The notes under the pieces: model-generated
What the model saw: the letters and a program-made list of their open reading frames with translations, nothing else
What the model was told of the DNA's origin: nothing
The model's database searches: none
Shown here: piece after piece, positions 45,980-63,049 of the stretch
How positions within the stretch are numbered: the stretch's first letter is position 1
Layout: each line of letters begins with the position of its first letter
Translations under genes and position numbers: made by a program
DNA from: Campylobacterota bacterium
GTDB taxonomy: Bacteria; Campylobacterota; Campylobacteria; Campylobacterales; Sulfurimonadaceae
DNA length: 64,000 nucleotides
Direction: 5' to 3'
Assembly (NCBI GenBank): GCA_040752835.1
Contig: JBFMGG010000008.1
Coordinates: 124,001-188,000, forward strand

Positions 45980-47095
45980 TTATGCCTTTTTTACTTTTCT
46001 TTTGACATACTCTAAAATATTTTCACTCATTTTATAAATTTCTTCGGACATTTCTAAAAGATGTGCTTCACCATCATATTTATCCATCATCCCCTGTGCT
46101 TTACGGAGATGTATATAGCAATTTGTTAGAGAACTTTCGAACACATCAGATTTTTCTTTTGTTTCTACCAGAGCTTTATCCAAATCCCTTGTGTCTTTTA
46201 GGATAGCGTGTGCGATAGGATTAGAAATTACCATCCCAAGATTTTTCAAATCAGGATTTTGGCTTTTAATTAAAGGTGGGATGTTGTCTGTTTTTGAGCC
46301 ATAAAAATATTGAAAAACTTCACCAAAACGTTCTTTTTGTTTATCTGTTTTGATGGGTTGAAGATCAGGATTTTTATCCCATCCTAATTCTAAATCAAGA
46401 TATTTTGAGTATTCTTTTCGTCCGAGTGCTGTGTATAAATGAGAAAAGCCAAAGCGTCCACGATTATATTTATCGCTAATTTTAAATAAGCCTTCATTTT
46501 CTGCTTGATCTAAAATGAGCATTGAAGAGATAAAAGAACGGATTGTATCATTTGAATCTCCTATCTTTTTGGCAATTTCTTCAATAGCAATGGGTGTACC
46601 TGCTTCTTTTGAACGGACATACCAATCTGTTACAAATCTTGCTTTAGCGTATGAATCCCAACGAAAAGCACCATTAACATGCTTAAATGCAATATAGGAT
46701 TCCGCGTCAAATCTGTTGTTGACAACGACTGCTGAAAGATTTTCAAAACTTTTGGATGCACTTTGTTGGCATCCTTCAGGAATATTGATTTTACATTCTG
46801 TAGCTAATACTGGATTTGAAATTAGTTTAAGGGTTGCTAATCTTCGATTTCCTTCTAAAACTGTATAAGTTTCTGGAGTTGTACCTCTTGGTAATACGAT
46901 TAGAGGCTCAATGTCTAAATAGCCATTCGCACAAATTGAGTTAATTAATTCAGATAAATCAGCAATTTCATGAAGGGTTTGAATAATAGTATCGTCTTGA
47001 GAAGGGGTGTTGTTATCACCTCGTACAAGTCTTGGATTCTCAATATCAAAGTATAATGACTCAATTGAAAGTGAAAGTTTGTTAAATAATGACAT
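45980..47095 (-). CDS. ParB/Srx-fold protein
   Basis: A 371 aa protein whose N-terminal 100 residues form a ParB-like domain: IENPRLVR near the start, then the second box VLEGNRRLATLKL with Glu81-Gly82-Asn83-Arg84-Arg85. A central helical region (YAKARFVTDWYV, IAKKIGDSNDTIRSFISSMLI) resembles the ParB helix-turn-helix. Proteins of this superfamily can be CTP-dependent clamps or nucleases. Here it opens a three-gene operon with an unknown protein and a methyltransferase, so a role in plasmid-type partition is less likely than one in DNA modification or defence. Confidence 0.7.
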   Translation of the reverse strand: MSLFNKLSLSIESLYFDIENPRLVRGDNNTPSQDDTIIQTLHEIADLSELINSICANGYLDIEPLIVLPRGTTPETYTVLEGNRRLATLKLISNPVLATECKINIPEGCQQSASKSFENLSAVVVNNRFDAESYIAFKHVNGAFRWDSYAKARFVTDWYVRSKEAGTPIAIEEIAKKIGDSNDTIRSFISSMLILDQAENEGLFKISDKYNRGRFGFSHLYTALGRKEYSKYLDLELGWDKNPDLQPIKTDKQKERFGEVFQYFYGSKTDNIPPLIKSQNPDLKNLGMVISNPIAHAILKDTRDLDKALVETKEKSDVFESSLTNCYIHLRKAQGMMDKYDGEAHLLEMSEEIYKMSENILEYVKRKVKKA

Positions 47096-47110
47096 AATTA
47101 CCCTTCGTCT

Positions 47111-47154
47111 ATATAGCTAAACGCTATATTATATCTAACATTACATTAATGTTA
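47111..47154. promoter_or_regulatory. Two palindromes at the promoter of the ParB-like operon
   Basis: ATATAGC-N5-GCTATAT (47111-47129) and TAACATTA-CAT-TAATGTTA (47136-47154) are perfect inverted repeats. On the minus strand a TATAAT (47128-47133) sits between them, 33 bases before the ParB-like start. One lies in the spacer upstream of the -10 and the other over the transcription start, a layout of tight repression, perhaps by the operon's own products. Confidence 0.6.
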
Positions 47155-47312
47155 TAATGATATTAAAACAATATTATTATAATACTATGAAAGCAAAAAA
47201 GTTACAGATTAGCTATTTTTTATATCGAAAGATTGTGGTTTTTTAGGCCTCAATTGTTCAATTAATAAGAACCGTAAAAAAGTGGTAAAACACCATATAA
47301 GCAATAGTTTAT

Positions 47313-47331
47313 AGGGGTATTTTTAGGGGTA
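47313..47331 (+). repeat. Right AGGGGTA repeats, probable integrase arm sites
   Basis: AGGGGTA at 47313-47319 and 47325-47331, 12 bases apart, as in the left group. The 438-base gap between the ParB-like gene and the hydrogenase (47096-47533) otherwise holds only the operators, attR and a promoter. Confidence 0.65.
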
Positions 47332-47382
47332 TAATTTTTGATAAAGTCAAATAAAACCCTAAAATATGTCTATAGTGGTAGT

Positions 47383-47401
47383 CCCCCCCGCCACCATCGA
47401 A
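47383..47401 (+). repeat. attR, right attachment repeat
   Basis: CCCCCCCGCCACCATCGAA, identical to the end of tRNA-Met at 34156-34174. Downstream sequence is chromosomal and leads into the hydrogenase island. Confidence 0.9.
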
Positions 47402-47491
47402 TCCTCACAGTTTCTGTAAACACAATTCCTAAAATCCGAATTTACCGTACTATATTTCATCCGTCGTATTTACCTCTATACACCACTTTGC

Positions 47492-47497
47492 TATAAT
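47492..47497 (+). promoter_or_regulatory. -10 box of the fused hydrogenase operon
   Basis: TTGCTATAATC contains a perfect TATAAT 36 bases before the start codon. It lies outside attR, so the operon keeps its own promoter whether or not the element is inserted. Confidence 0.5.
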
Positions 47498-47533
47498 CCC
47501 TCATCAACGAAGAGAGACGGCAAAGGGGTAACC

Positions 47534-49966
47534 ATGCGGATCGTGATTGTCGGCGGCGGGATCGTCGCGGCGTATATGGCCAACGCGCTTTACGATCAGG
47601 CCCCCGAACACGACGTCGTGATCGTCACCAAAGAGGCTTATCCCCCCTATGACCGTATCCACCTCTGTGCGCTGGTAAACCACAGCGCGACGATCGATCA
47701 GCTCGCTCTGGACCTTCCGCCCAAAACCCGTGTCGAGCTCAATTCCGAAGTCACCCGCATCGATACCGACGCCAAGCGGATCTATACCGCTTCGTCCATG
47801 ATTTCGTACGATGTCCTCGTCATCGCGACCGGTTCGAAGCCCCGCAGTCTGTTCGATACGCGAGGGATCTCCAATGCGGTGACGTTCCGCAGCGCCGAGG
47901 ATTCCGAATGCATCGCCAGACGGATCGCTGGAAAAAACGTCATCATCATGGGGGTCGGACCGATCGGGCTGGAACTGCTCGATACCCTTCGCACAATGGA
48001 AGGGCCGCGTAAAATCTATCTCGTATCGCGGGGATCGCACCTCTACGACAAGGCGATGACGCCCGAAGCGGTTGCACTGATGAAGCGGGTGTACGAAGCG
48101 TCCGATCCTCGCGTCGAAATTATTTTTGAAGACGAGATCCGTGAGCGGAGCGTCGAAAACGGCGAAATCGTCCGCGTCGCGCTCAAATCGCGTACGATCG
48201 ACGACCCGTTTATCGTTTTCGGGGTGGGGATCGCTCCCAGCATCGAGTGTGCCAAAGAGTCGCTCGAATGCGACCGGGGGATTCTCGTCGATGAACGCAT
48301 GCGCACCTCCGCCCCCTCGGTGTATGCGGTGGGAGAAGCGGCACAGATGCGCAACGGCTACATCGCCGGACGGGTCAAGGAGTGTACGCTGCAGGCCGAT
48401 GCGGCGGTCGCGAGCATTCTGGGGAAGGAGGGAGAGGGGTTCGCGGAATTCGTCACCATCGACGGCCTCAAAGTGGGGTCGTTTCTCCTCAGCGACGTCA
48501 CGTCGACGGCGTATGTCGCTGGGGATGCCTACAATGAAGACATCGTCATCGCCTCACGCGGCGAAGAGCGGATCGACCACTATATTCTAAACCGGGAACG
48601 GTTGGTGCGGTTTATCGGGATCAACAGTAACATCGACGCCCTGGCGCTGAAGCGGATGATGGAACGGGGAGAAAAAGCCGACGCGGCCTATTTTTACGCC
48701 AACCGCCTCATCAGCGAAAAAGGGAAACTTGTCTGCAGCTGCACGGGCTCCTACGAGCAGGACCTGATTGCCCTGATCAAGGAAGAGTGTATCGAGGATT
48801 TCGCCTCTCTCAAGCCTTTCAGCGAAGCGGGCAGGGTGTGCGGCCGATGCAAAAAAGACATCATGGCGCTGATCGCCTCGACTCCCGTCGATCCGGCCGA
48901 AGCGGCCCGGATGCGTGCTGAGCGCGAAGCGGCGGCGAAAGAAGCCGAGCTTTCAAGGGTACGGGAGCGGATCGAAAAATACAATCGCCTCCACCCCAAA
49001 AACCGGCTCAGTACCGAGAACCTCGCAGAAGCGCTCGAGTCGTTCGACATGGGGCGCGAGTTCAACCGCTGGGTGTCGATGATCACCGCGTCGATGGATC
49101 TGCCGCCGCGGTTTGAGGAGACGGTTGCCGAGGGGGTCCGGCAGTTGAACAAAATTCCGATCGTCTGGCTCGAACTCGCCGACTGCTCGGGCAATTCCGA
49201 AGCGTTTATCAAAACAGCCCATCCCAAGGTGGATGATCTGATCCTTAAATACATCTCGCTTGATTATCACGAGGTGCTGATGGCGGGATCGGGAGATCAG
49301 TCCGAATCGGCGCTTGATGCCGTGATCCAAAACGATGCGGGGCGCTATATTCTCGTCGTCGAGGGGGCGGTGCCGCTGGGGATGGAGGGGAAATTTCTGC
49401 GGATCGGCCCCAGGGGGGAGACGGGGCTGGCCCTGCTACGGCGCGTCGCGGCGGGTGCCGCAGCGGTAATGGCCGTGGGGTCGTGCGCCTACGACGGCGG
49501 CGTTGTTGCCGCCGAACCCAATCCCACGGGAGCCGTCGGGGTTGCCGAGGCGCTGGGGAGAAACGACGTCATTAACCTACCCGGATGCCCGACCAATCCC
49601 ATCAACATTGTCGGAACCCTGCTGCACTACATCATGTTCGACGAATTCCCGAAACTGGATGAAAAAAACCGCCCCCTCTGGGCGTACGGGTTCCGCGTAC
49701 ACGACAACTGCGAGCGCAGGGGCCATTACGAACTGGGCGAATTCGTCAAAGAATGGGGAGACGAAGGGGCGAAAAAAGGGTGGTGTCTTTTTGAGATGGG
49801 GTGCAAGGGGCCTTATGCCGATCTCAACTGTTCGCTCGTCAAATTCAACGACGCGACCAGCTGGCCGGTGCAGGCGGGGCACGGCTGTTTCGCCTGCGGT
49901 CAGGGGAAAATTGCGTTCGACCGTTACGCCAACCACCGCAAATTACCGGAGCAAGAACATGAATAA
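47534..49966 (+). CDS. Fusion: FAD/NAD(P) oxidoreductase + BFD [2Fe-2S] + [NiFe] hydrogenase small subunit
   Basis: An 810 aa protein. Residues 1-320 are an FAD/NAD(P) disulfide-oxidoreductase-type flavoprotein like the N-terminus of NirB: FAD loop VIVGGGIVAAY, a middle Rossmann VIIMGVGPIGLELL (136-149), and VYAVGEAAQ for FAD closure. Residues 398-445 form a bacterioferritin-associated-ferredoxin-type site with Cys401, Cys403, Cys436 and Cys439. Residues 540-795 are a hydrogenase small subunit: DCSGNSEA (Cys551), GSCAYDGG (Cys651), LPGCPTNP (Cys685), and the distal and medial cluster region (HDNCERR, GCKGP, CFACG). Residues 507-513 (GREFNRW) are a decayed Tat motif. No C-terminal anchor is present. 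Probably cytoplasmic, linking H2 oxidation to NAD(P). It overlaps its large subunit gene by eight bases. Confidence 0.9.
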   Translation: MRIVIVGGGIVAAYMANALYDQAPEHDVVIVTKEAYPPYDRIHLCALVNHSATIDQLALDLPPKTRVELNSEVTRIDTDAKRIYTASSMISYDVLVIATGSKPRSLFDTRGISNAVTFRSAEDSECIARRIAGKNVIIMGVGPIGLELLDTLRTMEGPRKIYLVSRGSHLYDKAMTPEAVALMKRVYEASDPRVEIIFEDEIRERSVENGEIVRVALKSRTIDDPFIVFGVGIAPSIECAKESLECDRGILVDERMRTSAPSVYAVGEAAQMRNGYIAGRVKECTLQADAAVASILGKEGEGFAEFVTIDGLKVGSFLLSDVTSTAYVAGDAYNEDIVIASRGEERIDHYILNRERLVRFIGINSNIDALALKRMMERGEKADAAYFYANRLISEKGKLVCSCTGSYEQDLIALIKEECIEDFASLKPFSEAGRVCGRCKKDIMALIASTPVDPAEAARMRAEREAAAKEAELSRVRERIEKYNRLHPKNRLSTENLAEALESFDMGREFNRWVSMITASMDLPPRFEETVAEGVRQLNKIPIVWLELADCSGNSEAFIKTAHPKVDDLILKYISLDYHEVLMAGSGDQSESALDAVIQNDAGRYILVVEGAVPLGMEGKFLRIGPRGETGLALLRRVAAGAAAVMAVGSCAYDGGVVAAEPNPTGAVGVAEALGRNDVINLPGCPTNPINIVGTLLHYIMFDEFPKLDEKNRPLWAYGFRVHDNCERRGHYELGEFVKEWGDEGAKKGWCLFEMGCKGPYADLNCSLVKFNDATSWPVQAGHGCFACGQGKIAFDRYANHRKLPEQEHE

Positions 49967-51656
49967 CCTCAAAAAGATCGTCATCGATCCCGTGACCCGC
50001 ATCGAGGGGCATTTGCGGATCGAGGTGGAGATCGACGAAAGCAACACGGTACGCGAGGCATGGGCTTCGGGGCAGCTGTTCCGCGGCATCGAGACGATTC
50101 TCAAAGGGCGTGATCCCCGCGATGCGGGGCTGATCGCCCAGCGGATCTGCGGGGTGTGCACGAACGTCCATTACCGCGCGTCGATCAGTGCGGTCGAGGA
50201 GGCTTACGGCATCACGATTCCGCCGAACGCCGAAATCGTCCGCAACCTGGTCACCCTGTCGCTGTTCGTGCAGGATCACATCGTCCATTACTACCATCTC
50301 CACTCGCTTGATTTCGTCGACATCACCGCAGCGCTCGGCGCCGATTGCGAGAAAGCCTCCGCCGAAGCGCTCAGATGGTCGTCGCATCCCTACCGTAATT
50401 CGGCGGGGCATCTGGAAAGCGTGCGGGAAAAACTTGAAGGATTCGTCAAAGCGGGGCGGCTGGGACTATTTTCGAACGGCTATTGGGGGCACAGCGCCTA
50501 TCGTCTGAGCCCCGAACAAAATCTCGTCCACATGAACCACTACCTCGAGGCGTTGCGGATCCAGCGGGAAATTTCGCAGGCAATCGCGATTTTCGCCGGG
50601 AAAACGCCCCATCCGCAGAACCTGGTGGTCGGTGGTGTAACGAGCGTCGCCGATATGCTCAACCCCCAGCGGTTGAACGACTTTCTTTTTATTATCAAAG
50701 AGGTGCGGGATTTTGTCGAAAGGGCTTACGTCCCCGACCTGAAGATGACCGTCGATGCCTATCGCGAATCGATCGCCCGAGGCGAAGGGCGCGCGCGCGG
50801 GAATTTTATGTGCTGCGGCGGATACCGTTTCGGGAAAGGGGAAGTTCTTTTTGAGGACGGGGTGATCTACGGACACGATTTTAGCCGCGTCGAACCGTTC
50901 GATCCCTCGAAGATCACGGAAGAAGCGTCGCGTTCGTGGTATGAGAACGATGCTCCCCTTTCCCCTTACGAGGGGGAGAGCGTGCCGTTCTACACCGACC
51001 TTAACGACGACGGAACCCTCCGCAGCGAAGGGAAATACACGTGGGTCAAAGCTCCCCGTTACGGCGGCGAGGTGATGGAAGTGGGACCCCTCGCGCGGAT
51101 GATCGTGGGGTATGTGAAAAACTCCCCCGTGATCCGCCCTTATATGGAACGGTTCATGGAGGCAACGGCCCTGGAATTGGGCGATTTTTCGACCACCGTC
51201 GGCCGCAACGCGGCGCGCGCGGTCGAAGCGCAGATTTGCTGCGACTATCTGTTCGATATGATGAGTGACCTGATCGAGAACGTCAAATACTACGATGAAG
51301 AGACCTGGACAAAGTACGTTTTCGAGGAACTGCCGCAAGAAGCCAGGGGGGCGGGGATCTTTGAAGTGCCGCGCGGGGTTCTCTCCCATTTCGTCCGGAT
51401 CGAGGACGCCAGGATCGCCAATTACCAGGCCGTGGTTCCCACGACGTGGAACGCTTCGCCCAAAGACGCGCGCAACGTCCGGGGGGCGTACGAAGAAGCG
51501 CTGATCGGCATCACGCTCGCCGATCCTGCCGCACCGCTGGAGGTGCTTCGGGCCGTCCATTCATTCGACCCCTGCCTCGCATGTGCGGTGCACGTGATCG
51601 ACACGAAAGGGCGGGAACTGTCGCACTATAAGATTCTGAACCGTTGTTCGCTATAA
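49959..51656 (+). CDS. [NiFe] hydrogenase large subunit, partner of the flavoprotein fusion
   Basis: A 565 aa catalytic subunit. The N-terminal Ni-Fe ligands are in RICGVCTNVHY and the C-terminal ones in DPCLACAVH. A 20-residue tail (VIDTKGRELSHYKI and on) follows the final His and should be removed by a maturation protease. It resembles HydB of this window over its whole length (for example FRGIETILKGRDPRD against FRGIEEILKGRDPRD), so it is a paralogue of the membrane enzyme that moved into a new complex. The ATG overlaps the fusion gene's end. The open frame upstream of the ATG is an antiparallel artefact within the small subunit gene. Confidence 0.94.
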   Translation: MNNLKKIVIDPVTRIEGHLRIEVEIDESNTVREAWASGQLFRGIETILKGRDPRDAGLIAQRICGVCTNVHYRASISAVEEAYGITIPPNAEIVRNLVTLSLFVQDHIVHYYHLHSLDFVDITAALGADCEKASAEALRWSSHPYRNSAGHLESVREKLEGFVKAGRLGLFSNGYWGHSAYRLSPEQNLVHMNHYLEALRIQREISQAIAIFAGKTPHPQNLVVGGVTSVADMLNPQRLNDFLFIIKEVRDFVERAYVPDLKMTVDAYRESIARGEGRARGNFMCCGGYRFGKGEVLFEDGVIYGHDFSRVEPFDPSKITEEASRSWYENDAPLSPYEGESVPFYTDLNDDGTLRSEGKYTWVKAPRYGGEVMEVGPLARMIVGYVKNSPVIRPYMERFMEATALELGDFSTTVGRNAARAVEAQICCDYLFDMMSDLIENVKYYDEETWTKYVFEELPQEARGAGIFEVPRGVLSHFVRIEDARIANYQAVVPTTWNASPKDARNVRGAYEEALIGITLADPAAPLEVLRAVHSFDPCLACAVHVIDTKGRELSHYKILNRCSL

Positions 51657-51685: not shown

Positions 51686-52279
51686 TTGGCCCGTCCGAGC
51701 AAAGAAGAGCGCAAAGTCTCGATCATGACCAAAGCACTGGAACTCTTTTCGAAAGAGGGGTTCTATCAGACGACAATGCCTTCCATTGCCGAAAAAATCG
51801 GAATGAGCGTCGGGAACCTCTACAATTATTTCGCCTCCAAAGAGACGCTTGCCAAGGAACTGATCCTCTACATCGCCAATATGCTGGGCGAAGAGATCCG
51901 CCGGATTAACGAAAGTCCGTTGGATACGCGGGAAAAAATCGTTGCGATCGTCCACATGTATTTCAAAATCGCGCAGGAACGCCCCGAGACGATCGAATAT
52001 TTTCTTCGCGTCTACCTCTCCAACCGCGAAGTATTCCGCGAAGGGTGCGAGGGGATGATCTGCGTATCGGCGTTCGTGACGGAACTGATGATCTTTTTTG
52101 AAGAGGGGGTTCGCTCGGGCGAACTGCGCGACCAGGATTTTTTCAGCGCGTTCGGACTCTTTATGGGATACCTGGGGGGGATGGTGTTCCTCAACGGCGA
52201 GCGGATTCTCCCGAACGCGCTGGAAAGCTACGAAGCGTCCATCGCCGAAAACATCTACAATGCCCTCAAAGCCCGCTAA
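51686..52279 (+). CDS. TetR family transcriptional regulator
   Basis: A 197 aa regulator with a TTG start and AAGGAA ahead of it. The N-terminal helix-turn-helix reads KALELFSKEGFYQTTMPSIAEKIGMSVGNLYNYFASKETL, typical of TetR. The C-terminal ligand domain is helical (FLRVYLSNREVF, FGLFMGYLGGMVFLNG). It lies directly before, and overlaps by 20 bases, the sensor-type hydrogenase small subunit, so it is a good candidate for the output of H2 sensing. In well-known systems a histidine kinase fills that role. The direct link is inferred. Confidence 0.85.
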   Translation: MARPSKEERKVSIMTKALELFSKEGFYQTTMPSIAEKIGMSVGNLYNYFASKETLAKELILYIANMLGEEIRRINESPLDTREKIVAIVHMYFKIAQERPETIEYFLRVYLSNREVFREGCEGMICVSAFVTELMIFFEEGVRSGELRDQDFFSAFGLFMGYLGGMVFLNGERILPNALESYEASIAENIYNALKAR

Positions 52280-53156
52280 ATTCCAGATCGTCTGGCTACA
52301 GGGGATCACCTGCAACGGGAATACCCATTCGTTTCTGAATGACCCTTTGCTGGGGAGCCTGCTGGACAAAGTCCGTTTTCTGTACCATCCGATTCTCCCT
52401 TCGCAGATGTCGTTGCGTGAACTTGTCGTCAAAATTCCCAAATCGGATCTCCTGATCGTCGAGGGGGCCTACCGGGGTGATTTCGAAAGAGGGGGGGCGG
52501 TCATGGAAAAACTGCTTCCGGCCCTGGCCGCGCGTGCCAAAAACATTGTCGCGCTGGGGAGCTGCGCGAGCTTCGGGGGGATTTTCAAAGAAGCTTCCCC
52601 CGAATCGATCAGCGGGATCGTCTACGACAAAAGCGAAGCGACGGGGCCGCTGGCGGCCATGCGCGAAAAGGTGATCAACCTCGGCGGCTGTCCCGCCCAT
52701 CCCGAATGGCTGAGTTTTGTCATCGGAATGATGCTGAACAAAAGAAAGGTCGCCCTCGACGAACTCGGCCGTCCCAAAGAACTCTACGCCTATACGGTCC
52801 ATAACGGATGCCTGCGCAACGACTATTTCGAATGGAAAGTCGACAGCCGGAGCTTCGGCACCAAAGAGGGGTGCCTGTACTACGAGCAGGGGTGTCAGGG
52901 CCCCTTCACGCACGGCAGCTGCAACAAGATTCTCTGGAACGGCGTCGCCTCGAAGACCCGTGCGGGGACTCCGTGTTTCGGGTGTACCGAACCCACCTTC
53001 CCCAAAACCGACCTGTTCCGGACCAAAACCTATATGTCGATCCCCTCGGAGATGCCGCTGGGAGTTCCCAAGCGAAGCTATCTTGCGCTGGCCGGGGCGG
53101 CCAAATCGTTCCACATCAAACGGCTCGAAGAGAGGCTGATCGATGATCACGCATGA
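52260..53156 (+). CDS. [NiFe] hydrogenase small subunit, sensor-like
   Basis: A 298 aa small subunit with no Tat signal or membrane anchor, so cytoplasmic. Landmarks are QIVWLQGITCNGNTHSF (Cys18), LGSCASFGG, LGGCPAHPEW, HNGCLRNDYF, QGCQGPFT and GTPCFGCTEP for the three clusters. The start overlaps the TetR gene, and its end overlaps the large subunit by 14 bases. Cytoplasmic group 2 hydrogenases of this kind are often H2 sensors (HupU/HoxB). The function is inferred from the C-terminus of the partner subunit. Confidence 0.85.
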   Translation: MPSKPAKFQIVWLQGITCNGNTHSFLNDPLLGSLLDKVRFLYHPILPSQMSLRELVVKIPKSDLLIVEGAYRGDFERGGAVMEKLLPALAARAKNIVALGSCASFGGIFKEASPESISGIVYDKSEATGPLAAMREKVINLGGCPAHPEWLSFVIGMMLNKRKVALDELGRPKELYAYTVHNGCLRNDYFEWKVDSRSFGTKEGCLYYEQGCQGPFTHGSCNKILWNGVASKTRAGTPCFGCTEPTFPKTDLFRTKTYMSIPSEMPLGVPKRSYLALAGAAKSFHIKRLEERLIDDHA

Positions 53157-54444
53157 ACTGATCGAGCGGATTGAGGGGGAGGCGCTCATCGATTTTCGTA
53201 CGGACCGCAGCGGGCGGGTACAGGACGCGCAGATCCGTTTTTTGCATTTTCGGGGAATGGAGGCGATTTTGGAGGGGCGCCATCCGCTCGATGCGCTTGT
53301 CATCGCCCCAAGGGTATGCGGAATCTGCGGCCATTCGCACCTGATCGCGGCGGTCGAGGCGATCGAAGCAGCTTACCGGCACAGCGGTGCGGAGGTCAAG
53401 CTGAGCATGAAAGCACGCAGTATCCGCAACGTTACAAAATTTTCCGAACTGCTGCAAAACCATCTTAAATGGTTGTATCTCATCATGCTGGGCGAAAGTG
53501 CCAAGCTGCTACGCGAAGAACACCCGTTGCCCCTCAAGGCACTCAATGCCGCATCGCAGGCCAATCGCCTTGCCGCGCTGTTCAGCGGCCAGTGGCCCCA
53601 CAGCTCCTATGCGCTTCCCGGCGGTGTGACGTGCGACCCGACCCACATCGAAATCATGCAGGCGCTCAAAATCCTCGCCGAACTCGAACGGTTCGTCGAG
53701 GCCGAGGTTTTGGGGTGCTCTTTTGGGGAGTTTGAAACGATCCGCTCCTATCGGGATCTGACGGCGCTGGGGGGGGATTTCGGAAAATTGCTCCAAAACG
53801 TGGAGCGGCTGGGCCTCGCGGACACCGGGCACAGCCACGGCCGTTTTCTCGTTTTGGGGGAACATCCCGGATGCCGCAGTATGGCCATCGACGGCAACAC
53901 CCGCCGCGCTGCCGACGTTGCCAACGTCAGCGAAGACGCCTCGGCGGTGATCGAAGGGAAAACGTATGCCAAAAACGCCCTGTACGAAGGGGCGTTTTAC
54001 GAGACGGGTCCTTTGGCCAGGGCACTGGTCTCGGGCCGGAGCGTCATCGGGGCGATCCACGAAGCGCACGGCGACAGCGCATCGGTACGGATCGCCGCGC
54101 GGATGGACGAAATGGTCGATCTGCTCAAAAACATCCGTCGTCTGATCGAAACGCTCGACCTTTCCGAGCCGTCGTATATCGCCCCTCCCCCGATCGAGAC
54201 AATCAGCGGGGAGGGGAGGGGAATCGTCGAAGCGCCTCGCGGCAGCCTGATCCACACCCTCCGCATCGAAAAAGGGAAAATCATCGCGTACGCGATGATC
54301 ACCCCGACGCAGTGGAATCTCGGTAACGGTACCGCCGTGTCGCCGGGGGTGGCGCAAAAAGCGATGATCGGTGCCCAAAGCCGTGACAAAGCCTCTTTTC
54401 TTTTCCGGACGTTCGATGTCTGCTCCGTCTGCACGACCCACTGA
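53143..54444 (+). CDS. [NiFe] hydrogenase large subunit, sensor-like, without cleavable tail
   Basis: A 433 aa large subunit. The N-terminal Ni ligands are in RVCGICGHSH and the C-terminal ones in the last residues DVCSVCTTH. The protein stops exactly at the terminal His, so no protease-cleaved extension exists. This is the hallmark of regulatory H2-sensing hydrogenases (HoxC/HupV), which mature without an endopeptidase. The usual Asp-Pro-Cys before the last motif is Asp-Val-Cys. It is shorter than the two other large subunits. It begins inside the small subunit gene. Confidence 0.88.
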   Translation: MITHELIERIEGEALIDFRTDRSGRVQDAQIRFLHFRGMEAILEGRHPLDALVIAPRVCGICGHSHLIAAVEAIEAAYRHSGAEVKLSMKARSIRNVTKFSELLQNHLKWLYLIMLGESAKLLREEHPLPLKALNAASQANRLAALFSGQWPHSSYALPGGVTCDPTHIEIMQALKILAELERFVEAEVLGCSFGEFETIRSYRDLTALGGDFGKLLQNVERLGLADTGHSHGRFLVLGEHPGCRSMAIDGNTRRAADVANVSEDASAVIEGKTYAKNALYEGAFYETGPLARALVSGRSVIGAIHEAHGDSASVRIAARMDEMVDLLKNIRRLIETLDLSEPSYIAPPPIETISGEGRGIVEAPRGSLIHTLRIEKGKIIAYAMITPTQWNLGNGTAVSPGVAQKAMIGAQSRDKASFLFRTFDVCSVCTTH

Positions 54445-54573: not shown

Positions 54574-55809
54574 ATGGCCGAGCGTAGAGAAGCGTTTAAA
54601 ATGCTGTTTAGTGCAAACAGCGCGAAAGTGGAGACGAACAAAGGGGATGCGTACTACGACAGACTCTTCCAGCAGTGCCGTGCGCGGCTTGACGAGCTCA
54701 AAGCGTCGCAGCCGCTTCAGGCGATCGATTTTCACGAGATTCTCAGCGACGAAGGGTACGATCGCCGCGAATTCATGAAATGGGCGAGCGCGGCGACGGC
54801 GATGCTGATGTTGCCGCCGATGTTTACGCCGCTGGTGGCCGAAGCCGCCGAACTGATGACCCGTGTTCCGGTCATCTGGCTGGAACTGCAAGACTGCGCG
54901 GGGAATTCCGAAGCGTTGCTGCGCAGCGACGGGCCGAAAATCGACGAGATTCTGCTCGACATCATTTCGCTTGAATTCCACGAGACGTTGATGGCGGCGG
55001 CGGGGCATCAGGCGGATGCGCAGCTTGAAGACGCGATGCACGCTTTCAAAGGCAAATACCTCCTCTTCGTCGAAGGGGCGATTCCAATGGGGATGGAAGG
55101 GCAGTACGGTACGATCGGCGCGAGCGGAGAGACATTCCATGAACATCTTGTTCGGGTTGCCGCGGACGCGGCGGCGGTCGTTGCGGTCGGAAGCTGTGCC
55201 ACCTACGGCGGTATCCCGGCGGCGGCTCCGAACCCTACCGAAGCGGTCGGCGTCATGGATGTCCTCAAAGGCAAACCGATCATCAACATTCCCGCCTGTC
55301 CGGCGAATCCCGCCAACATGGTGGGGGTCATCTTGCATTTCGTGTTAACGGGGCAGGTCCCCGAACTCGATTCGCTGCTGCGTCCGAAATTCGCGTTCGG
55401 ATACCGTATCCACGACAACTGCGAACGCCGTGCCCACTTTGACGCCGGCGAGTTCGTCGAAGAGTGGGGGGACGAAGGGGCGAAAAACAATTTCTGTCTC
55501 TACAAAATGGGTTGTAAAGGGCCGATGACGTTCAACAACTGTTCGATCGTCCGCTACAATGAAGGGGTCAACTGGCCGATCGGGGTCGGACGGGGATGCA
55601 TCGGATGCTCCGAGCCCGATTTCTGGGATAAATACGCGTACGAGCGTCCGATGAGCGACGCCAACATCAAAGCACCGACCGGAGGCGTCGAAAAAACCGT
55701 CGACCAGTTCGGTCTGGGCGTTTTGACCGCCACGGCGGTCGGTATCGGAATCCATGCCGCCGCGAGCGCGGTCGCGGGTAAAAAATCAGATGAAGGGGAA
55801 GCACAATGA
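54574..55809 (+). CDS. hydA: [NiFe] hydrogenase small subunit, Tat-exported, membrane-bound
   Basis: A 411 aa small subunit. The Tat motif is RREFMK at 64-69, preceded by an unusually long 63-residue N-terminus and followed by a hydrophobic stretch. Mature landmarks are VIWLELQDCAGNSEA (Cys108), VGSCATYGG, IPACPANP, HDNCERR, MGCKGP and CIGCSEPDFWD. A C-terminal helix (GLGVLTATAVGIGIHAAASAV) anchors it to the membrane with the active site outside, as in Wolinella HydA. It carries electrons from the large subunit to HydC. AAGGAGGGGG is a strong ribosome site. Confidence 0.95.
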   Translation: MAERREAFKMLFSANSAKVETNKGDAYYDRLFQQCRARLDELKASQPLQAIDFHEILSDEGYDRREFMKWASAATAMLMLPPMFTPLVAEAAELMTRVPVIWLELQDCAGNSEALLRSDGPKIDEILLDIISLEFHETLMAAAGHQADAQLEDAMHAFKGKYLLFVEGAIPMGMEGQYGTIGASGETFHEHLVRVAADAAAVVAVGSCATYGGIPAAAPNPTEAVGVMDVLKGKPIINIPACPANPANMVGVILHFVLTGQVPELDSLLRPKFAFGYRIHDNCERRAHFDAGEFVEEWGDEGAKNNFCLYKMGCKGPMTFNNCSIVRYNEGVNWPIGVGRGCIGCSEPDFWDKYAYERPMSDANIKAPTGGVEKTVDQFGLGVLTATAVGIGIHAAASAVAGKKSDEGEAQ

Positions 55810-57536
55810 GTAAACATATCGTAATCGATCCGATCACGCGTATCGAGGGGCATCTGCGCATCGAAGCGGTGATTGACGACAACAACACGATCGTCGACGC
55901 CTACAGCTCGTCAACGATGTTCCGGGGAATCGAGGAGATTCTCAAAGGACGTGACCCGCGCGACTGCGGCCTGCTGGCGATGCGGATCTGCGGCGTCTGT
56001 ACGGGGACCCATTACCAGCGCTCCATCGAGGCGGTCGAACACGCGTTCGGCGTGACGATTCCCAAAAATGCCCGTCTGGTCCGGAACCTGATTCAGGGTG
56101 CGCTCTACGTCCACGACCACGTCGTCCATTTCTACCATCTCCACGCGCTTGACTGGGTCGACATCACCAAGGCGCTCGAAGCCGATCCGGCCAAAGCGGT
56201 TGCCGAAGCGCAAAAGTGGGCTTCCGTCGCGGGTGTCGCGGCGTGGGGCGACAGCGAATCGGCGTACAAAGCGGTGCAGGAACGGCTGACGAAATTTGTC
56301 AAACAAGGGCGCCTCGGACCGTTTGCCAAAGGGTACTGGGGGAACAAGCATTACAAACTCACCCCCGAACAGAACCTTGTCGCGGTTTCGCACTACCTCG
56401 AAGCGCTCGACCTGCAGCGCGACGCCGCGAAAATGCAGGCGATTTTCGGGGGGAAAAACCCGCATCCGCAGAGCATCGTCGTGGGCGGCGTCACCTGTGT
56501 GCAGGACATTCAGAACCCCGCGCGGATCGCCCTGTTTAAAAACCTGCTTCTTAAATTCCGCGATTTCATCAAACGCGCCTATCTCCCCGACGTCTACATG
56601 GCCGGGACGATGTATGCCGACGAAGCGCTGGACGGGACCGGCGGCGGGCTCAAAAATTATCTCAGCTACGGCGATTTCCGCCTCGACGACACCGAGTTTT
56701 ACAAATCGGCGCTCCTCTTCCCCAGCGGTATCGTCGTGGGCGGGGATATTTCCAAGGTGATCCCGCTCGATCAGGGAAAAATCGCCGAGGATGTCACCCA
56801 CTCGTGGTACGAAGGGGCCAAACCGCTGCACCCCTATGATGGGCAGACGATCCCCAACTACACGGGATTCGGTAAAAAAGAGGGGGGAATTGCCTACCTT
56901 GACACCGAGAAAAAATACAGCTGGATCAAGTCGCCGATTTACGACGATACCCGGATGGAAGTCGGACCGTTGGCCCGTATGGTCATCGGTGTGGCTGCCA
57001 AGGACGAGCGGATTACCAAATACGTCACCAACTTCCTTACACGCGGAAAACTGCCGACGTCGGTCCTGTTCTCGACCGTCGGGCGGACTGCGGCGCGTGC
57101 GATCGAGACCGAGCTGATGGCGGATGTGATGGTCGAATGGACCGACGAACTGGCCGCCAACGTCGCCGCAGGCGATCTGAGCACCTGGACGGAGTTTGAT
57201 TTCAACACCGTCAGCAAAAGCGCCAAAGGGTACGGAATGGCCGAAGCCCCGCGGGGGGCGTTGGGGCACTGGGTGCGCATCGAGGAGGGGAAAGTCGCCA
57301 ATTACCAGGCGATCGTCCCTTCGACCTGGAATGCCGGGCCGCGCGACTACAAAGGACGGATGGGGGCGTATGAATCGAGCCTTATCGGTACCAAAGTTGC
57401 CGATCCCGAACAGCCGCTGGAGATTTTGCGTACCATCCACAGTTTCGACCCGTGTATCGCGTGTGCGGTCCACCTTGTCGATACCAAAGGCAGAGAGCTC
57501 GGCGTCTACAAAGTCGACAGCGTTTGCGCGATCTAG
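55806..57536 (+). CDS. hydB: [NiFe] hydrogenase large subunit, membrane-bound uptake enzyme
   Basis: A 576 aa catalytic subunit of H2 uptake. Active-site ligands are in RICGVCTGTHY and DPCIACAVH. A 20-residue tail (LVDTKGRELGVYKVDSV...) after the last His is expected to be cut by the HyaD-type protease encoded downstream. It is co-exported with HydA through the Tat signal of the latter. It overlaps hydA by four bases, showing tight coupling. Confidence 0.97.
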   Translation: MSKHIVIDPITRIEGHLRIEAVIDDNNTIVDAYSSSTMFRGIEEILKGRDPRDCGLLAMRICGVCTGTHYQRSIEAVEHAFGVTIPKNARLVRNLIQGALYVHDHVVHFYHLHALDWVDITKALEADPAKAVAEAQKWASVAGVAAWGDSESAYKAVQERLTKFVKQGRLGPFAKGYWGNKHYKLTPEQNLVAVSHYLEALDLQRDAAKMQAIFGGKNPHPQSIVVGGVTCVQDIQNPARIALFKNLLLKFRDFIKRAYLPDVYMAGTMYADEALDGTGGGLKNYLSYGDFRLDDTEFYKSALLFPSGIVVGGDISKVIPLDQGKIAEDVTHSWYEGAKPLHPYDGQTIPNYTGFGKKEGGIAYLDTEKKYSWIKSPIYDDTRMEVGPLARMVIGVAAKDERITKYVTNFLTRGKLPTSVLFSTVGRTAARAIETELMADVMVEWTDELAANVAAGDLSTWTEFDFNTVSKSAKGYGMAEAPRGALGHWVRIEEGKVANYQAIVPSTWNAGPRDYKGRMGAYESSLIGTKVADPEQPLEILRTIHSFDPCIACAVHLVDTKGRELGVYKVDSVCAI

Positions 57537-57545: not shown

Positions 57546-58253
57546 ATGAAACCCGGATACGAAAAAATCAAACGGATGACTCCCGCCATGCGGATCATCC
57601 ACTGGGTGAACGTGGTCTCCATCCTCGCGGCGGTAATCACAGGGCTTTACATCGCCCATCCCTATTACCAGAGTTTTATCGCCGACCCGGCGGTGGACAA
57701 ATACGTAATGGCGTGGAACCGCTGGATCCATTTCATCGGGGCGATTTTGCTCGACGTTACGTCGGTGGCGGTGGCATACCTCTACTTTTTCAGCCGGTTT
57801 GAAAAACCGTACAAAAAGCTGGTCCCCAACGCGCGGAACGTGACGGAGTTCAAAGAGGTGCTGATTAATCTGCTCACCCTCAACCGCCGCAAAAATTTCG
57901 ATTCCAGCCACAGCGACAGTTTCAATGTCGTCTATTTTACGATCATGCACCTGATGCTGATCCTGATGCTGCTGACCGGATTGCAGATGTATGTGCACGG
58001 CCTGGCGTCGGGCGAGAGCAGCATCGGCGCGTGGTGGCCGTGGATGCTTCACATGACGACCGACTGGACGTTGTGGGTGTTCGGCGGAAATATGGGGGTG
58101 CGGTACGTGCACCATCTAATGATGTGGTGGATCGTCGCATGGGTGATGTTCCATGTTTATTATCAGATATGGCGGACCATTTTCTGGCAGGAGGGGGATA
58201 TCGCCATCGCCTTCGGCGGGTCCAAATTCAAAAAAAGTTCCGAAACAGAGTAA
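57546..58253 (+). CDS. hydC: Hydrogenase cytochrome b subunit
   Basis: A 235 aa membrane protein with four helices. The haem-ligating histidines are in IIHWVNVVSI, RWIHFIGAI, FTIMHLMLILMLLTGLQMY and YVHHLMMWWIVAWVMFHVYYQIW. It accepts electrons from HydA and passes them to menaquinone. The pattern matches the HydC/HyaC family. It starts 9 bases after hydB. The fourth helix is followed by a cytoplasmic tail. Confidence 0.93.
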   Translation: MKPGYEKIKRMTPAMRIIHWVNVVSILAAVITGLYIAHPYYQSFIADPAVDKYVMAWNRWIHFIGAILLDVTSVAVAYLYFFSRFEKPYKKLVPNARNVTEFKEVLINLLTLNRRKNFDSSHSDSFNVVYFTIMHLMLILMLLTGLQMYVHGLASGESSIGAWWPWMLHMTTDWTLWVFGGNMGVRYVHHLMMWWIVAWVMFHVYYQIWRTIFWQEGDIAIAFGGSKFKKSSETE

Positions 58254-58341: not shown

Positions 58342-58899
58342 ATGAAAAGCGTCGTGGTCGTCGGTATCGGCAATATCCTCTTCAAAGACGAAGGGGTGGG
58401 GGTGTATGCGGGACGGTATCTGGATGAAAACTACCGTTTCGAACCCTCCATCGACATCATCGACGGAGGGACGCTCGGATTCAAACTGATGACTTACTAT
58501 CAGTCCTACGACAAGGTGCTGATCCTCGATACCGTCTCCATCGACGATGCGCCCGGATCGGTCTACCACCTCCCGGCCGAGGCATTGATGGGGTTGGGAA
58601 GCTACCGTCAGACGGCTCATGAAGTGGAAGTCGTCGAAATGCTCGAAATCTGTTCGTTGCTGGATAAAATGGCCGACGTCAGCGTCGTGGGGATTATCCC
58701 CGAAGATATCGAAAGCGTCGAGATAGACCTTACCCCGACGCTGCACGGGCGGTTTGAAGCGATGATCGAAACGACGCTGGGCGAACTCAAAAAGGCCGGG
58801 ATCGAGGTCATCCCCAAAGAGAGCCCCAAGCCTCTCGCCCAGATCATCGATCTTTACGCCAATCCCACGATGGCATCGTTTCATGCGCTCAACCCCTAA
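58342..58899 (+). CDS. hydD: Hydrogenase maturation protease
   Basis: A 185 aa endopeptidase of the HyaD/HupD/HoxM family that cuts the C-terminal tail from the large subunit after nickel insertion. The N-terminus reads VVVGIGNILFKDEGVGVYAG, with Asp and Glu binding nickel, then DGGTLGFKL and ILDTVSIDDAPGSVY. HydB and the fused hydrogenase's large subunit both have tails of the kind it cuts; only one protease is present in the window. Confidence 0.93.
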   Translation: MKSVVVVGIGNILFKDEGVGVYAGRYLDENYRFEPSIDIIDGGTLGFKLMTYYQSYDKVLILDTVSIDDAPGSVYHLPAEALMGLGSYRQTAHEVEVVEMLEICSLLDKMADVSVVGIIPEDIESVEIDLTPTLHGRFEAMIETTLGELKKAGIEVIPKESPKPLAQIIDLYANPTMASFHALNP

Positions 58900-58908: not shown

Positions 58909-60828
58909 GTGGCGTTCATTTTCGAAATCGGGTGCGATACCCATCAAAAGACGATTGCCAATACGCTGGTGTCGATTCTCCGCCTTTACGGAATCGAGGC
59001 TTCGGTCACCCAGGACAAAGGGCGCATCACCTGTGCGATGAATCAGGACCATCCGAGACTGCAGGAGGCGTTTGACGCGATGGGTTCGCTCCTCCCCGCA
59101 TCGCTCTTCATGCGCGGCAGTTCACACCGCTTTGACGATACCCGCATGACGCAGCTCCCGGAGTTCCTGGAACGTCTCCCGTTGGGCCTCGGGGTGTGTC
59201 CGCGCTGTATGCGCGAGATGTTCGATCCCGCTTCACGCCGTTACTATTATCCTTTCACTTCATGCAACCATTGCGGGGGGCAGTACGCATTTTTCGAAGC
59301 GTACCCTTATGTTCGGGAGAATACGGCGCTGCGCGCTATTTCTCCTTGCCCGGCGTGCACGGAAGAGTTTTCCGAAGATGCGTTTCGTCAGGGGTACCCG
59401 CAGATCGGATGTCCCGAATGCGGTGTCGAGGTGACGCTGCGGGAGGGGGAAACCCTTTGGTGCGCGAAGTCCTCGGCCGATTTTAAAGCGTTGTTCGAAC
59501 GTGCCGCCGCCGCCGTGGCCCGAGGTGAACGGGTCCGTATCCAAACGACGATGGGGGTTCGCACGTTTGCGCTCCCGGCTGCGGCGAGTGATGATTCGAT
59601 CGTGATGGTATTCGACGCATCGAAACTGAGCGAGCTTTTTTCGCTGATCGATGAAGAGTTCAACGCCCTTCTTTCCCTCGAACGCCCCATCTTGCACGTC
59701 GCGCTCAAAGACCCGTTTTTCAAAGCGTCATTGGGCGATACGGTCGACGCCCAGTACGCCGATGACGGATTTACGCTGCTGCTGGGACGCGAGCTGATCG
59801 GATTGGGAATCGGGGCGGCAGTTTACAGCACCGACGAGGGAGCCGATGCCGATGTGATGATCGGATACGACATCGCCATCAACACCCAGTCTCCCATGCG
59901 CCTATTCCTCAACAAAGAAGTCCGCTTCGTCGCACAGGGGGAGAGGGGAAGCTTCCCGGCCTATATCGCTCCGGCGGTCGATGTCGCCGGTTTCGCCCAT
60001 TCGCTGGCCGCGGTCCGTGTGGGAGAGAAGATGCTGATCGACCGCCCCGAACACCTTGGGGGGACGACGACGTCGAAAGTCAATGCGCTTGCGGGGGAGG
60101 AACTGGGATTTTCGCACGGGAATCTTCACCGTTTCGATCAGGACACGGCCTCGTTCATGGCGGTTCTGGCGGAAAACGGTCTGCGCAAAAACAGCGCCGT
60201 TTGCGCCTACTTCGACGAAACGATCACTTTTTTGTACACCAAAGGCGAGCACATCACCCGCGTCATTCCCGCCGAACCGTTCGTCTCTTCGGGGCTGATC
60301 GGACGGATCGGATCGTTGCGCGAGGGATCGGACCGTCTGATCGACAACCTCCGGCTGCAGCGTGCCGAATTGTACGGTGTGCTCGAAACCATCGAAGGTT
60401 CATCGTGTTCTTTGTTCGAAGCGGCCGCAATGATCGTCGGGCTGAAAAATCCGGGGATGAACGCCCTTGTCAAAGAAGCCCTTCGTTTTGTCGGTAAAGG
60501 GGGGCTGCAAATCGATACGAAACTGCGGGACAACCGTTTTGATTCGGTCGCTTTTCTGGCCAGCATCATCAGCTATCGCCTCGCCGACGTTCCGACGCCG
60601 CTGTTGTGTTATTCGGTTTTCGAGTCGTTGGGAGACTATTTCAGTGATATACTTACTGAACTTAAAAACCGTTCCAAAGCGGAACATGTGGTGTTGTGCG
60701 GAAGTGGGTTTGCCAATCAAAGCCTTTACAGCCGCGTAATGCGAAACCTCAAAAACACGCCGCCGGTATTGTCGCGGAGTTTTCCGATAGGGAGGGAAAA
60801 TGGAGTCGTCGGAGGGATTTATCTCTAA
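58909..60828 (+). CDS. hydE: HydE: HypF-like maturation protein lacking the acylphosphatase motif
   Basis: A 639 aa protein built like HypF. It has four CxxC pairs (Cys97/100, 119/122, 147/150, 168/171) in the same zinc-finger frame as HypF (CPRCMREMFDPASRRYYYPF), and a C-terminal half with a decayed Kae1-like signature (VLCGSGFANQSLYSRV). The N-terminal acylphosphatase motif GxVQGVGFR is missing. Wolinella and Helicobacter hyd operons end with a HydE required for hydrogenase activity, which I take this to be. It begins 9 bases after hydD and overlaps hypF by 29 bases. Confidence 0.8.
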   Translation: MAFIFEIGCDTHQKTIANTLVSILRLYGIEASVTQDKGRITCAMNQDHPRLQEAFDAMGSLLPASLFMRGSSHRFDDTRMTQLPEFLERLPLGLGVCPRCMREMFDPASRRYYYPFTSCNHCGGQYAFFEAYPYVRENTALRAISPCPACTEEFSEDAFRQGYPQIGCPECGVEVTLREGETLWCAKSSADFKALFERAAAAVARGERVRIQTTMGVRTFALPAAASDDSIVMVFDASKLSELFSLIDEEFNALLSLERPILHVALKDPFFKASLGDTVDAQYADDGFTLLLGRELIGLGIGAAVYSTDEGADADVMIGYDIAINTQSPMRLFLNKEVRFVAQGERGSFPAYIAPAVDVAGFAHSLAAVRVGEKMLIDRPEHLGGTTTSKVNALAGEELGFSHGNLHRFDQDTASFMAVLAENGLRKNSAVCAYFDETITFLYTKGEHITRVIPAEPFVSSGLIGRIGSLREGSDRLIDNLRLQRAELYGVLETIEGSSCSLFEAAAMIVGLKNPGMNALVKEALRFVGKGGLQIDTKLRDNRFDSVAFLASIISYRLADVPTPLLCYSVFESLGDYFSDILTELKNRSKAEHVVLCGSGFANQSLYSRVMRNLKNTPPVLSRSFPIGRENGVVGGIYL

Positions 60829-63049
60829 ACGTCTGCTCATTACACTCCGGGGGATTGTACAGGGGGTCGGTTTCCGCCCTTTTGTCTACCGTATCGCCAA
60901 ACGCTACGGGATACGCGGATACGTGACCAATACCCCCGAAGGGGTTTTGATCGACGCCGAAGGACGGTCCCTCGAAGCGTTCCTCCATACCCTTCAGAAC
61001 GATTTGCCCCCTTTGGCGCGGATCGATGCGCTGGAGGCCTCGGAGGAGGCCGTGGTCGGGCATGAGGCGTTTGAAATCCGTGAAAGCCGGATGGGGGAAG
61101 GGAGTACGGCGATTCCCCTTGAAAGCGCACTGTGCAACGCATGTGAACGCGAGATGCGCGATCCTTCCAACCGCCGTTACGGCTATCCTTTCATCAACTG
61201 CACCGACTGTGGACCCCGGTACACGATCATGCAGATACCTCCTTACGACCGCGTCCGTACGTCGATGAAACATTTTGCGATGTGCGACGCGTGCCGCGCG
61301 GAATACGACGATCCCAGATCACGCCGGTTCCATGCCGAACCGATCAGCTGTCCCGAATGCGGGCCGAAGCTCCGGCTGCTCGACGCTGCGGGCAACGAAA
61401 TCCGAGAAAATCCGATCGAAGGGGCTGCCAGACGGCTGAGGGAAGGGAAGATCGTCGCGCTCAAAGGGCTGGGGGGATTTCACCTGATGTGCGACGCCAC
61501 GTCCGAAGCGGCGGTGGTCGATCTTCGCCGCCGCAAACGCCGCCGTGCCAAACCCCTGGCGGTGATGTTCGCTTCGATGGAACAGTTGCGCTTCCACGCC
61601 CGGATCGATGAGGATGAAGCGGCGTTGATCGAGGGGAACATCAAGCCGATCGTCCTCGTGGATGCCGATCCCGCATCGTCGCTGGCCCCCTCGGTCGCAC
61701 CCGGGATCGGTCGCATCGGGGTCTTTCTTCCCTATACCCCGCTGCACCGGATGCTCTTTGAATCGGTTGATTTTCCGCTGGTGGCCACCAGCGCCAATAT
61801 CAGCGACGAACCGATCCTCATCCGGGCCGAAGAGGTGATCCAGAGACTCGGCGACGTCGTCGACGCGATTCTCGATCATGACCGGAGCATCGTCAACGGG
61901 CTCGATGACGCCGTCGTCCAGGTGGCGGGCGGGAAGACGCTGATGCTTCGAATGGGGCGGGGATACGCGCCGTGTACGTTTTTGCTTCCCGCACCGTTGC
62001 CCAAACCCCTTTTGGCGGTCGGTGCGCATCAAAAAAGCGCCGTGGCGCTCGGAGTCGGCCGTAGCCTCGTCCTGGGCGGTCACATCGGGGACCTGGGAAG
62101 TATCGAAGCCGAGGAATATTTCGAGCGCAACGTTCATACCCTGGAGCGCTTTTACCGCTGCACGCCCGAAGTGATCCTCCACGACGCCCATCCCGCTTAC
62201 GCATCCACCCGATACGCTTCGCAGCGGACCAAAACGACCGCCGCGGTACAGCACCACTATGCCCACATACTCGCCTGCATGGCCGAACACGCCCTGAAGG
62301 AAACGGTGATCGGATTTTCGTTTGACGGGACGGGATACGGAGAAAACGGGACGATGTGGGGCGGCGAGGTACTGATCGCCGACGTCAGGGGATATGAGCG
62401 GATCGGGTTTATCAAACCTTTTGCCCTGTTGGGAGGAGACAAAGCCATCAAAGAGCCGCGCCGCATCGCTTTGGCGTTATTGTTCGAACGCTATTCTCTT
62501 GACGAAGTACTCGCGATGGACATCCCTGCGACCGCAGCGTTCTTGCCGCATGAAATCCGGCAGCTCCACCATATGTGGAGCAAGAATCTCAACGCTCCGC
62601 GATCGAGTTCGATGGGACGGCTCTTCGACGCGGTCGCATCGCTGGGGGGATTCGTCCAGAGTCTCGATTACGAAGGGCAGGGGGGGCTGATCATGGAAGG
62701 TTACGTGCGGGAGAGGGAGGCGGAACCGTTTACGTTTACGATTGAAGAGGGATGCATCGACGTCTTGGGGATGGTGGATCAGATCATTGCTCTTCTGCCT
62801 TCGGAAGAGGCGAAATACACCATCGCCGGACGCTTCATCGCCACGGTCTCCTCGATCATCGAAACGTTGGCGTCGCGTTACCCCGATCTTCCCGTCGTCA
62901 TCGGGGGCGGGGTATTCCAAAACCGCGCGCTGATGAGCCGCCTGTACCGCCGTTTTGAGGGCAAACGGTTTTATGCCCAGCAGCGTACCCCCATCAACGA
63001 CGGTTCGATCGCGCTTGGGCAGGCATGGTGGGGCGTCCACAACGTTTAG
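60800..63049 (+). CDS. hypF: Carbamoyltransferase HypF
   Basis: Makes thiocarbamate for the cyanide ligands of the [NiFe] site. The product (749 aa) has an acylphosphatase domain (GIVQGVGFRPFVYRIAKRYG, residues 18-37), two zinc-finger blocks (CNACEREMRDPSNRRYGYPF, CTDCGPRY, CDACRAEY, CPECGPK), a YrdC-like domain (KGLGGFHLMCDA, RKRRRAKPLAVM), and a C-terminal Kae1-like domain (FDGTGYGENGTMWGGEVL, GGGVFQNRAL). All parts are complete. The start lies inside hydE, and the downstream gene runs the other way with a 4-base overlap. Confidence 0.96.
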   Translation: MESSEGFISKRLLITLRGIVQGVGFRPFVYRIAKRYGIRGYVTNTPEGVLIDAEGRSLEAFLHTLQNDLPPLARIDALEASEEAVVGHEAFEIRESRMGEGSTAIPLESALCNACEREMRDPSNRRYGYPFINCTDCGPRYTIMQIPPYDRVRTSMKHFAMCDACRAEYDDPRSRRFHAEPISCPECGPKLRLLDAAGNEIRENPIEGAARRLREGKIVALKGLGGFHLMCDATSEAAVVDLRRRKRRRAKPLAVMFASMEQLRFHARIDEDEAALIEGNIKPIVLVDADPASSLAPSVAPGIGRIGVFLPYTPLHRMLFESVDFPLVATSANISDEPILIRAEEVIQRLGDVVDAILDHDRSIVNGLDDAVVQVAGGKTLMLRMGRGYAPCTFLLPAPLPKPLLAVGAHQKSAVALGVGRSLVLGGHIGDLGSIEAEEYFERNVHTLERFYRCTPEVILHDAHPAYASTRYASQRTKTTAAVQHHYAHILACMAEHALKETVIGFSFDGTGYGENGTMWGGEVLIADVRGYERIGFIKPFALLGGDKAIKEPRRIALALLFERYSLDEVLAMDIPATAAFLPHEIRQLHHMWSKNLNAPRSSSMGRLFDAVASLGGFVQSLDYEGQGGLIMEGYVREREAEPFTFTIEEGCIDVLGMVDQIIALLPSEEAKYTIAGRFIATVSSIIETLASRYPDLPVVIGGGVFQNRALMSRLYRRFEGKRFYAQQRTPINDGSIALGQAWWGVHNV

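Follow-up and report, generated by a model that had tools for sequence, protein, structure and literature searches.

The locus described here raises the question of what a single protein can do that joins a flavoprotein to the small subunit of a [NiFe] hydrogenase, and whether such a protein exists at all. The gene lies in the 64,000-nt stretch of a Sulfurimonadaceae contig that was analysed as a whole and is referred to below as the window. All coordinates are positions within this window, and residue numbers are those of the 810-aa fusion protein (Table 1). The open reading frame and the Pfam and NCBIfam matches bore out the preliminary description of one chain with the order flavoprotein, BFD-type [2Fe-2S] site and small subunit. 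Pfam assigned Pyr_redox_2 to residues 1-273, Fer2_BFD to 399-448, Oxidored_q6 to 551-698 and NiFe_hyd_SSU_C to 718-792, all above the gathering cut-offs. With NCBIfam, residues 3-449 matched positions 1-467 of the 794 positions of the NirB profile (TIGR02374), and residues 508-791 matched hydA (TIGR00391). The small subunit is complete, as had been claimed, and is of the group-1 type; in a phmmer search this part matched small subunits of the E. coli Hyd-2 type with an E value of 1e-79. The four cysteines of the BFD site were found at exactly the positions given before (401, 403, 436 and 439) and were kept in 66 of 66 fusions. The flavoprotein is indeed NirB-like, but its end had been set too early at residue 320; it reaches about residue 390 because the third (interface) domain of the ferredoxin-reductase fold belongs to it. 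The AF2 model of the 810-aa chain was good only in the N-terminal half, with mean block pLDDT values mostly above 90, while most of the small-subunit part had a pLDDT below 50. The top Foldseek matches of the N-terminal part were putidaredoxin reductase and BphA4.

Table 1. Features of the fusion gene and of the adjoining hydrogenase cluster in the 64,000-nt window
Feature	Position	Strand	Evidence
Fusion gene: flavoprotein, BFD [2Fe-2S] site and [NiFe]-hydrogenase small subunit, 810 aa	47534..49966	+	
FAD, NAD(P) and interface domains of the ferredoxin-reductase (BphA4, NirB) type, residues 1-390	47534..48703	+	Pyr_redox_2, AF2, Foldseek
Cys45 in PPYDRIHLC, adjoining the flavin-binding loop	47666..47668	+	Fusion alignment; loop per PMC7397466
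Arg166, putative 2'-phosphate (NADP) site	48029..48031	+	Fusion versus control alignment
Cys284 in RVKECTLQAD	48383..48385	+	Fusion versus control alignment
BFD-type [2Fe-2S] site, Cys401, 403, 436, 439	48728..48877	+	Fer2_BFD; invariant in 66 fusions
Mostly helical linker, residues 454-540	48893..49153	+	AF2 secondary structure
Decayed Tat-signal region EFNRWVSMITASMDLPP; compare RREFMKWASAATAMLMLPP in the exported paralogue at 54574	49058..49108	+	
Group-1 [NiFe]-hydrogenase small subunit, residues 540-797	49151..49924	+	TIGR00391; phmmer
Asn554, replacing the second proximal-cluster cysteine (C-x-G-N)	49193..49195	+	Fusion/HynA alignment
Cognate hydrogenase large subunit, 565 aa; RICGVC (L1) and DPCLACAVH (L2) intact	49959..51656	+	
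TetR-type regulator	51686..52279	+	PF00440; gene order shared with locus L050
Small subunit of the second (group 2d-like) hydrogenase; start codon uncertain	52260..53156	+	
Second hydrogenase large subunit, group 2d-like	53143..54444	+	
HynA: exported small subunit of group 1, with a Tat motif and likewise C-x-G-N	54574..55809	+	
HynB: large subunit of the exported hydrogenase, with 50% identity to the large subunit paired with the fusion	55806..57536	+	
HynC, cytochrome b subunit	57546..58253	+	PF01292, TIGR02125
Hydrogenase maturation protease, HycI family	58342..58899	+	PF01750
HypF maturation protein	60800..63049	+	TIGR00143 above cut-off

A frame error or an assembly artefact that merged two separate genes, the objection raised in the preliminary description itself, has a probability of practically nil. 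Full-length fusions in an open frame were counted in 74 of 151 Sulfurimonadaceae genomes, with identities of 52-94%, and these homologues exclude a frame error; no evidence in favour of one was found. The 74 include the copy in genome G138, which has one in-frame TAG. Seven further genomes of the 151 had incomplete copies, mostly at contig ends. At thresholds of E <= 1e-50 to 1e-60 the N-terminal module was present in 27 of 249 genomes sampled across the order and in 39 of 397 sampled across the phylum, and additional families of the Campylobacterales were among the carriers of the fusion. None of the matches listed from these two samples was a free-standing module: they lay in open frames of at least 806 aa, except for an interrupted copy in genome G542. 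This copy (locus L232, G542:C1:28841-32968) is interrupted by about 2.8 kb within the flavoprotein part, and another broken copy, L061, is split over frames. Named carriers among the matches listed were Sulfuricurvum, Sulfurovum and other records of Campylobacterota, and the Pfam order was identical in five named relatives. Outside the phylum the matches listed in the contig scan were generic ones of 23-29%, and no fusion was found in plasmid sequences.

The fusion is not new. In strain XCL-2 it was noted in 2006 by Scott et al., who are cited in both of the later papers (PMC4744846, PMC6501319). Hansen and Perner (2016) reported an 813-aa small subunit with a pyridine nucleotide-disulfide oxidoreductase part in Thiomicrospira crunogena XCL-2, which has no Tat signal and was presumed to be cytoplasmic, and they listed the same oversized gene for Sulfuricurvum kujiense, Sulfurimonas autotrophica, Sulfurovum sp. 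AR, Arcobacter nitrofigilis and Thioalkalimicrobium microaerophilum (PMC4744846). The same 813-aa protein was described for Hydrogenovibrio SP-41 by Gonnella et al. (2019). The large-subunit gene of this homologue was expressed, most strongly with H2 as the sole electron donor, and the hydrogenase activity of SP-41 was found in the membrane and attributed to another hydrogenase (PMC6501319). In XCL-2, whose only [NiFe] hydrogenase is of the fusion type, no hydrogenase activity was detected in any fraction (PMC4744846). The fusion in the window belongs to this published kind. The XCL-2 sequence was not among the matches listed in the contig scan.

The small-subunit part of the fusion was compared with HynA. 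The linker ends near EFNRWVSMITASM, which can be aligned with RREFMKWASAATAM of HynA but has no twin arginine. An RRx[FL] motif N-terminal to the proximal site was absent from every fusion examined, while all Tat-type HynA proteins compared have the Tat motif. The tail after the last medial cysteine measured 17-27 aa in the fusions versus 59-69 aa in HynA. The twin arginine and the membrane tail that characterise the Tat-exported membrane uptake hydrogenases (Hyn/Hyd) are thus both missing. Judged from the sequences, this double loss throughout the fusions is a new observation, and it fits a soluble enzyme that would be located in the cytoplasm. In a tree of small subunits the fusions formed one clade in 68% of the bootstrap trees, with weak support (69/50), and a single origin of this clade would be compatible with the tree. 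A simple derivation of the small subunit from the neighbouring HynA was considered and dropped, as the tree gives three separate sets (fusions, Tat-type HynA with C-x-G-N and HynA with C-x-G-C) and its root is uncertain. Loci L246, L247 and L248 encode proteins of 544-574 aa that resemble small subunits, carry a long extension at the C-terminus and have no Tat motif; they are probably HydE-like.

The paper of 2016 suggested that Fe-S sites were lost in the small subunit of XCL-2 (PMC4744846). The ligand set of group 1 comprises four proximal cysteines, three medial cysteines and a distal histidine with three cysteines. All medial and distal ligands and three of the four proximal cysteines were invariant in 69 fusions; only the second proximal cysteine differed, position 554 being Asn in 69 of 69. 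Contrary to the earlier suggestion, the predicted ligand set is near-complete, with one proximal cysteine changed to Asn, and since all other ligands are present the fusions are not generally stripped of Fe-S sites. The same replacement (C-A-G-N) was found in 31 of 31 Tat-exported HynA proteins of type A in the order, including that of the window (54574-55809), while a second type of HynA keeps C-T-G-C (Cys in 8 of 8). From the alignments, the C-x-G-N motif is common to the fusions and to a widespread exported enzyme.

The large-subunit gene, with both of its active-site motifs intact, begins 8 bases before the end of the fusion gene. At most fusion loci it lies within about 140 bases 3' of the fusion. 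At loci L045 and L051 a gene for a SulP-type transporter on the opposite strand stands between the two genes, and at L046 the two genes are about 9 kb apart. Three [NiFe] hydrogenases are encoded in the whole genome, namely the fusion pair, the group 2d-like enzyme and HynABC. In this genome, which is 99.5% complete, Complex1_51K (PF01512) had no match and the transhydrogenase PntB was not found; Complex1_51K was also absent from 8 of 12 other fusion carriers. By the families searched, there is no other candidate enzyme for exchange between H2 and pyridine nucleotides in this genome. Upstream, positions 36000-47500 form a low-GC stretch (37-43% versus about 57% downstream) that stops just before the fusion gene. 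It contains a MobA/VirD2 relaxase gene (41430-43031) and a gene that by eye resembles a DNA adenine methylase (44136-44990), and it looks like a mobile element integrated beside the hydrogenase cluster. Directly 5' of the complete hypF a 639-aa HypF-like protein is encoded (58909-60828), which matches only the zinc-finger part of HypF and, weakly, its end.

The dinucleotide site was examined against 43 NirB-like control flavoproteins. Together with the FAD site, the dinucleotide motif was conserved, as GxGxxG in 43 and GxGxxA in 21 of 66 fusions; the NAD(P) site, failure of which the preliminary description had named as fatal to its proposal, is therefore intact. In all 66 fusions, judged by sequence only, the acidic residue that follows the second strand of the dinucleotide domain gives way to a basic one, Arg166; Arg stands there in 6 of the 43 controls. 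The preceding position is mainly V, S, I, A or L, with no acidic residue among the common states. In the NADH-specific wild type of BphA4, Glu175 at this site binds the adenosine ribose (PMC7397466), and the best PDB matches of the N-terminal half in phmmer were BphA4 mutants with T176R/Q177G, at 84.9 bits compared with 78.1 for the wild type. Many fusions have the triplet V-R-K at the Arg166 site. When the glutathione reductase of E. coli was switched from NADP to NAD, this same triplet (V197, R198 and K199) was what was changed (PMC5817062). On sequence grounds NADP(H) is the likelier partner. The site thus looks to be of the NADP(H) type rather than the NADH type, a signature that appears to be new here and is more specific than the NAD(P) acceptor first proposed. 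Cofactor preferences predicted in this way can mislead, because FdR9 breaks the GxGxxG rule (PMC7397466).

With moderate confidence we propose that the fusion and its large subunit form a soluble, cytoplasmic, two-subunit and probably reversible H2:NADP+ oxidoreductase. The large subunit would split H2 at its NiFe site, and the electrons would travel along the three clusters of the small-subunit domain (proximal, medial, distal) to the BFD [2Fe-2S] cluster on the far side of the linker, from there to FAD and, as hydride, to NADP+. A path from H2 through the small-subunit clusters, the [2Fe-2S] cluster and FAD to NAD(P) would fit all of the sequence evidence. Such an enzyme would amount to NirB run backwards, with the siroheme half exchanged for a hydrogenase. 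Its likely task in a lineage of autotroph type would be to supply NADPH for CO2 fixation directly from H2, and in the reverse direction excess NADPH might be disposed of as H2. A more detailed version is offered tentatively, with slightly more doubt than confidence: a group-1 small subunit would have been retargeted from export and combined with a NirB-like module, its proximal cluster would be held by three cysteines and Asn (or be a [3Fe-4S] cluster), and the two polypeptides would provide a direct route from H2 to NADPH in Campylobacterota that oxidise sulfur, of which at least some lack a transhydrogenase and a diaphorase-type hydrogenase. The strongest fact contrary to an H2:NADP+ enzyme is that XCL-2 showed no hydrogenase activity. 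The membrane location of the activity in SP-41, ascribed to another hydrogenase, and the change of the second proximal cysteine to Asn also count against it.

A link to NAD(H), with some other purpose for Arg166, was assumed in earlier papers and appears fairly unlikely to us. An NADH-binding site was described by the earlier authors (PMC4744846), GxGxxG prevails over GxGxxA, and the relatives PadH, AorC and BphA4 are NADH enzymes, but Arg166 is invariant and Glu or Asp is absent from the common states at position 165. Reduction of CoA disulfide, persulfide or polysulfide at the flavoprotein end, with H2 as donor and by way of Cys45, is another reading, which we regard as quite improbable. In its favour, the hosts oxidise sulfur, the best profile matches in the PDB include CoA-disulfide reductases, and Cys45 and Cys284, both within motifs of the flavin domain, are specific to the fusions: Cys45 was found in 65 of 66, with Ser in most relatives, and Cys284 in 65 of 66 versus none of the 43 controls. 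However, the catalytic cysteine of the CoA-disulfide and persulfide reductases, located in the first turn that follows the FAD motif, aligns with Ile42, and Cys45 lies three residues further on. Each of the two cysteines is also missing by itself from one natural sequence that retains the other, which means that they are not a strict pair. The offset and the independent losses weaken any equation of Cys45, alone or with Cys284, with the cysteine of CoA-disulfide reductase, and the fully conserved NAD(P) site likewise speaks against reduction of a sulfur compound.

Another protein, a ferredoxin or flavodoxin, could be the acceptor, or the enzyme could bifurcate electrons from H2 to both NADP and ferredoxin in the service of reductive carbon fixation. 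The ferredoxin-reductase fold would suit such a role, and low-potential electrons have been proposed to come from a cytoplasmic hydrogenase in Sulfurimonas (PMC4149538). This is improbable given that there is only one flavin and one [2Fe-2S] cluster, the gene pair having neither a second flavin domain nor an extra ferredoxin module, and that the neighbouring group 2d-like enzyme is the usual candidate for that task (PMC5401914). That the fusion is a decaying, non-working hydrogenase, as suggested for XCL-2, would agree with the inactivity of that strain (PMC4744846), with C-x-G-N at the proximal site and with the few broken copies (G542, L061 and G138). We consider it very improbable, as about 75 in-frame copies across several families have invariant cofactor sites and intact large-subunit motifs, and as C-x-G-N is shared by all 31 exported HynA proteins mentioned above. 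An H2:NADP+ oxidoreductase remains the reading we prefer.

If it is correct, many Sulfurimonadaceae and related bacteria would have a one-step route from H2 to NADPH, and enzymes at present classed as respiratory uptake hydrogenases of group 1b would be biosynthetic. A soluble H2:NADP+ enzyme encoded by two genes would also be a compact catalyst for cofactor regeneration. The sequence evidence addresses two published doubts, the supposed loss of Fe-S sites and the supposed NADH site, and the question why an apparently silent hydrogenase persists in XCL-2 becomes a matter for direct assays.

Among known systems, HoxFUYH and HoxEFUYH (group 3d) share with the fusion only the proposed reaction, the cytoplasmic exchange between H2 and pyridine nucleotide. 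The diaphorase is unrelated, no Complex1_51K gene is present in this genome and the small subunit is of the exported group-1 type, so that any likeness is functional only and the earlier view of the fusion as a simpler bidirectional hydrogenase than HoxFUYH is not supported. In NirB nitrite reductase the half with FAD, NAD(P) and BFD [2Fe-2S] sites aligns with residues 3-449, but NirB continues into a siroheme sulfite-reductase half, which by Pfam is absent from the fusion, and the hydrogenase small subunit stands in that place. The BphA4-type ferredoxin reductases rank among the top matches, in both fold and sequence, to the N-terminal 400 residues; in the fusions Glu175 is replaced by Ser, Val or Ile with Arg adjoining, and Cys45, Cys284, the BFD part and the hydrogenase part are added. 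HynABC of the same genome (54574-58253) has C-x-G-N in common with the fusion, and the small subunits are about 50% and the large subunits 50% identical. Unlike the fusion, HynA has a Tat motif, a membrane tail and a cytochrome b partner, and it has no flavoprotein. The closest likeness is to the XCL-2-type enzyme of Thiomicrospira/Hydrogenovibrio crunogenus XCL-2 and SP-41. Although the BFD [2Fe-2S] site, the NADP signature and the near-complete Fe-S ligands were not found in the available parts of the two papers (PMC4744846, PMC6501319), no difference from the window fusion is evident when the two are likened by published description. Both have a small subunit of about 800 aa with an N-terminal pyridine nucleotide-disulfide oxidoreductase, both are without a Tat motif and an adjoining cytochrome b of their own, and both have a large subunit with the L1 and L2 motifs of group 1b, which in the window read RICGVC and DPCLACAVH.
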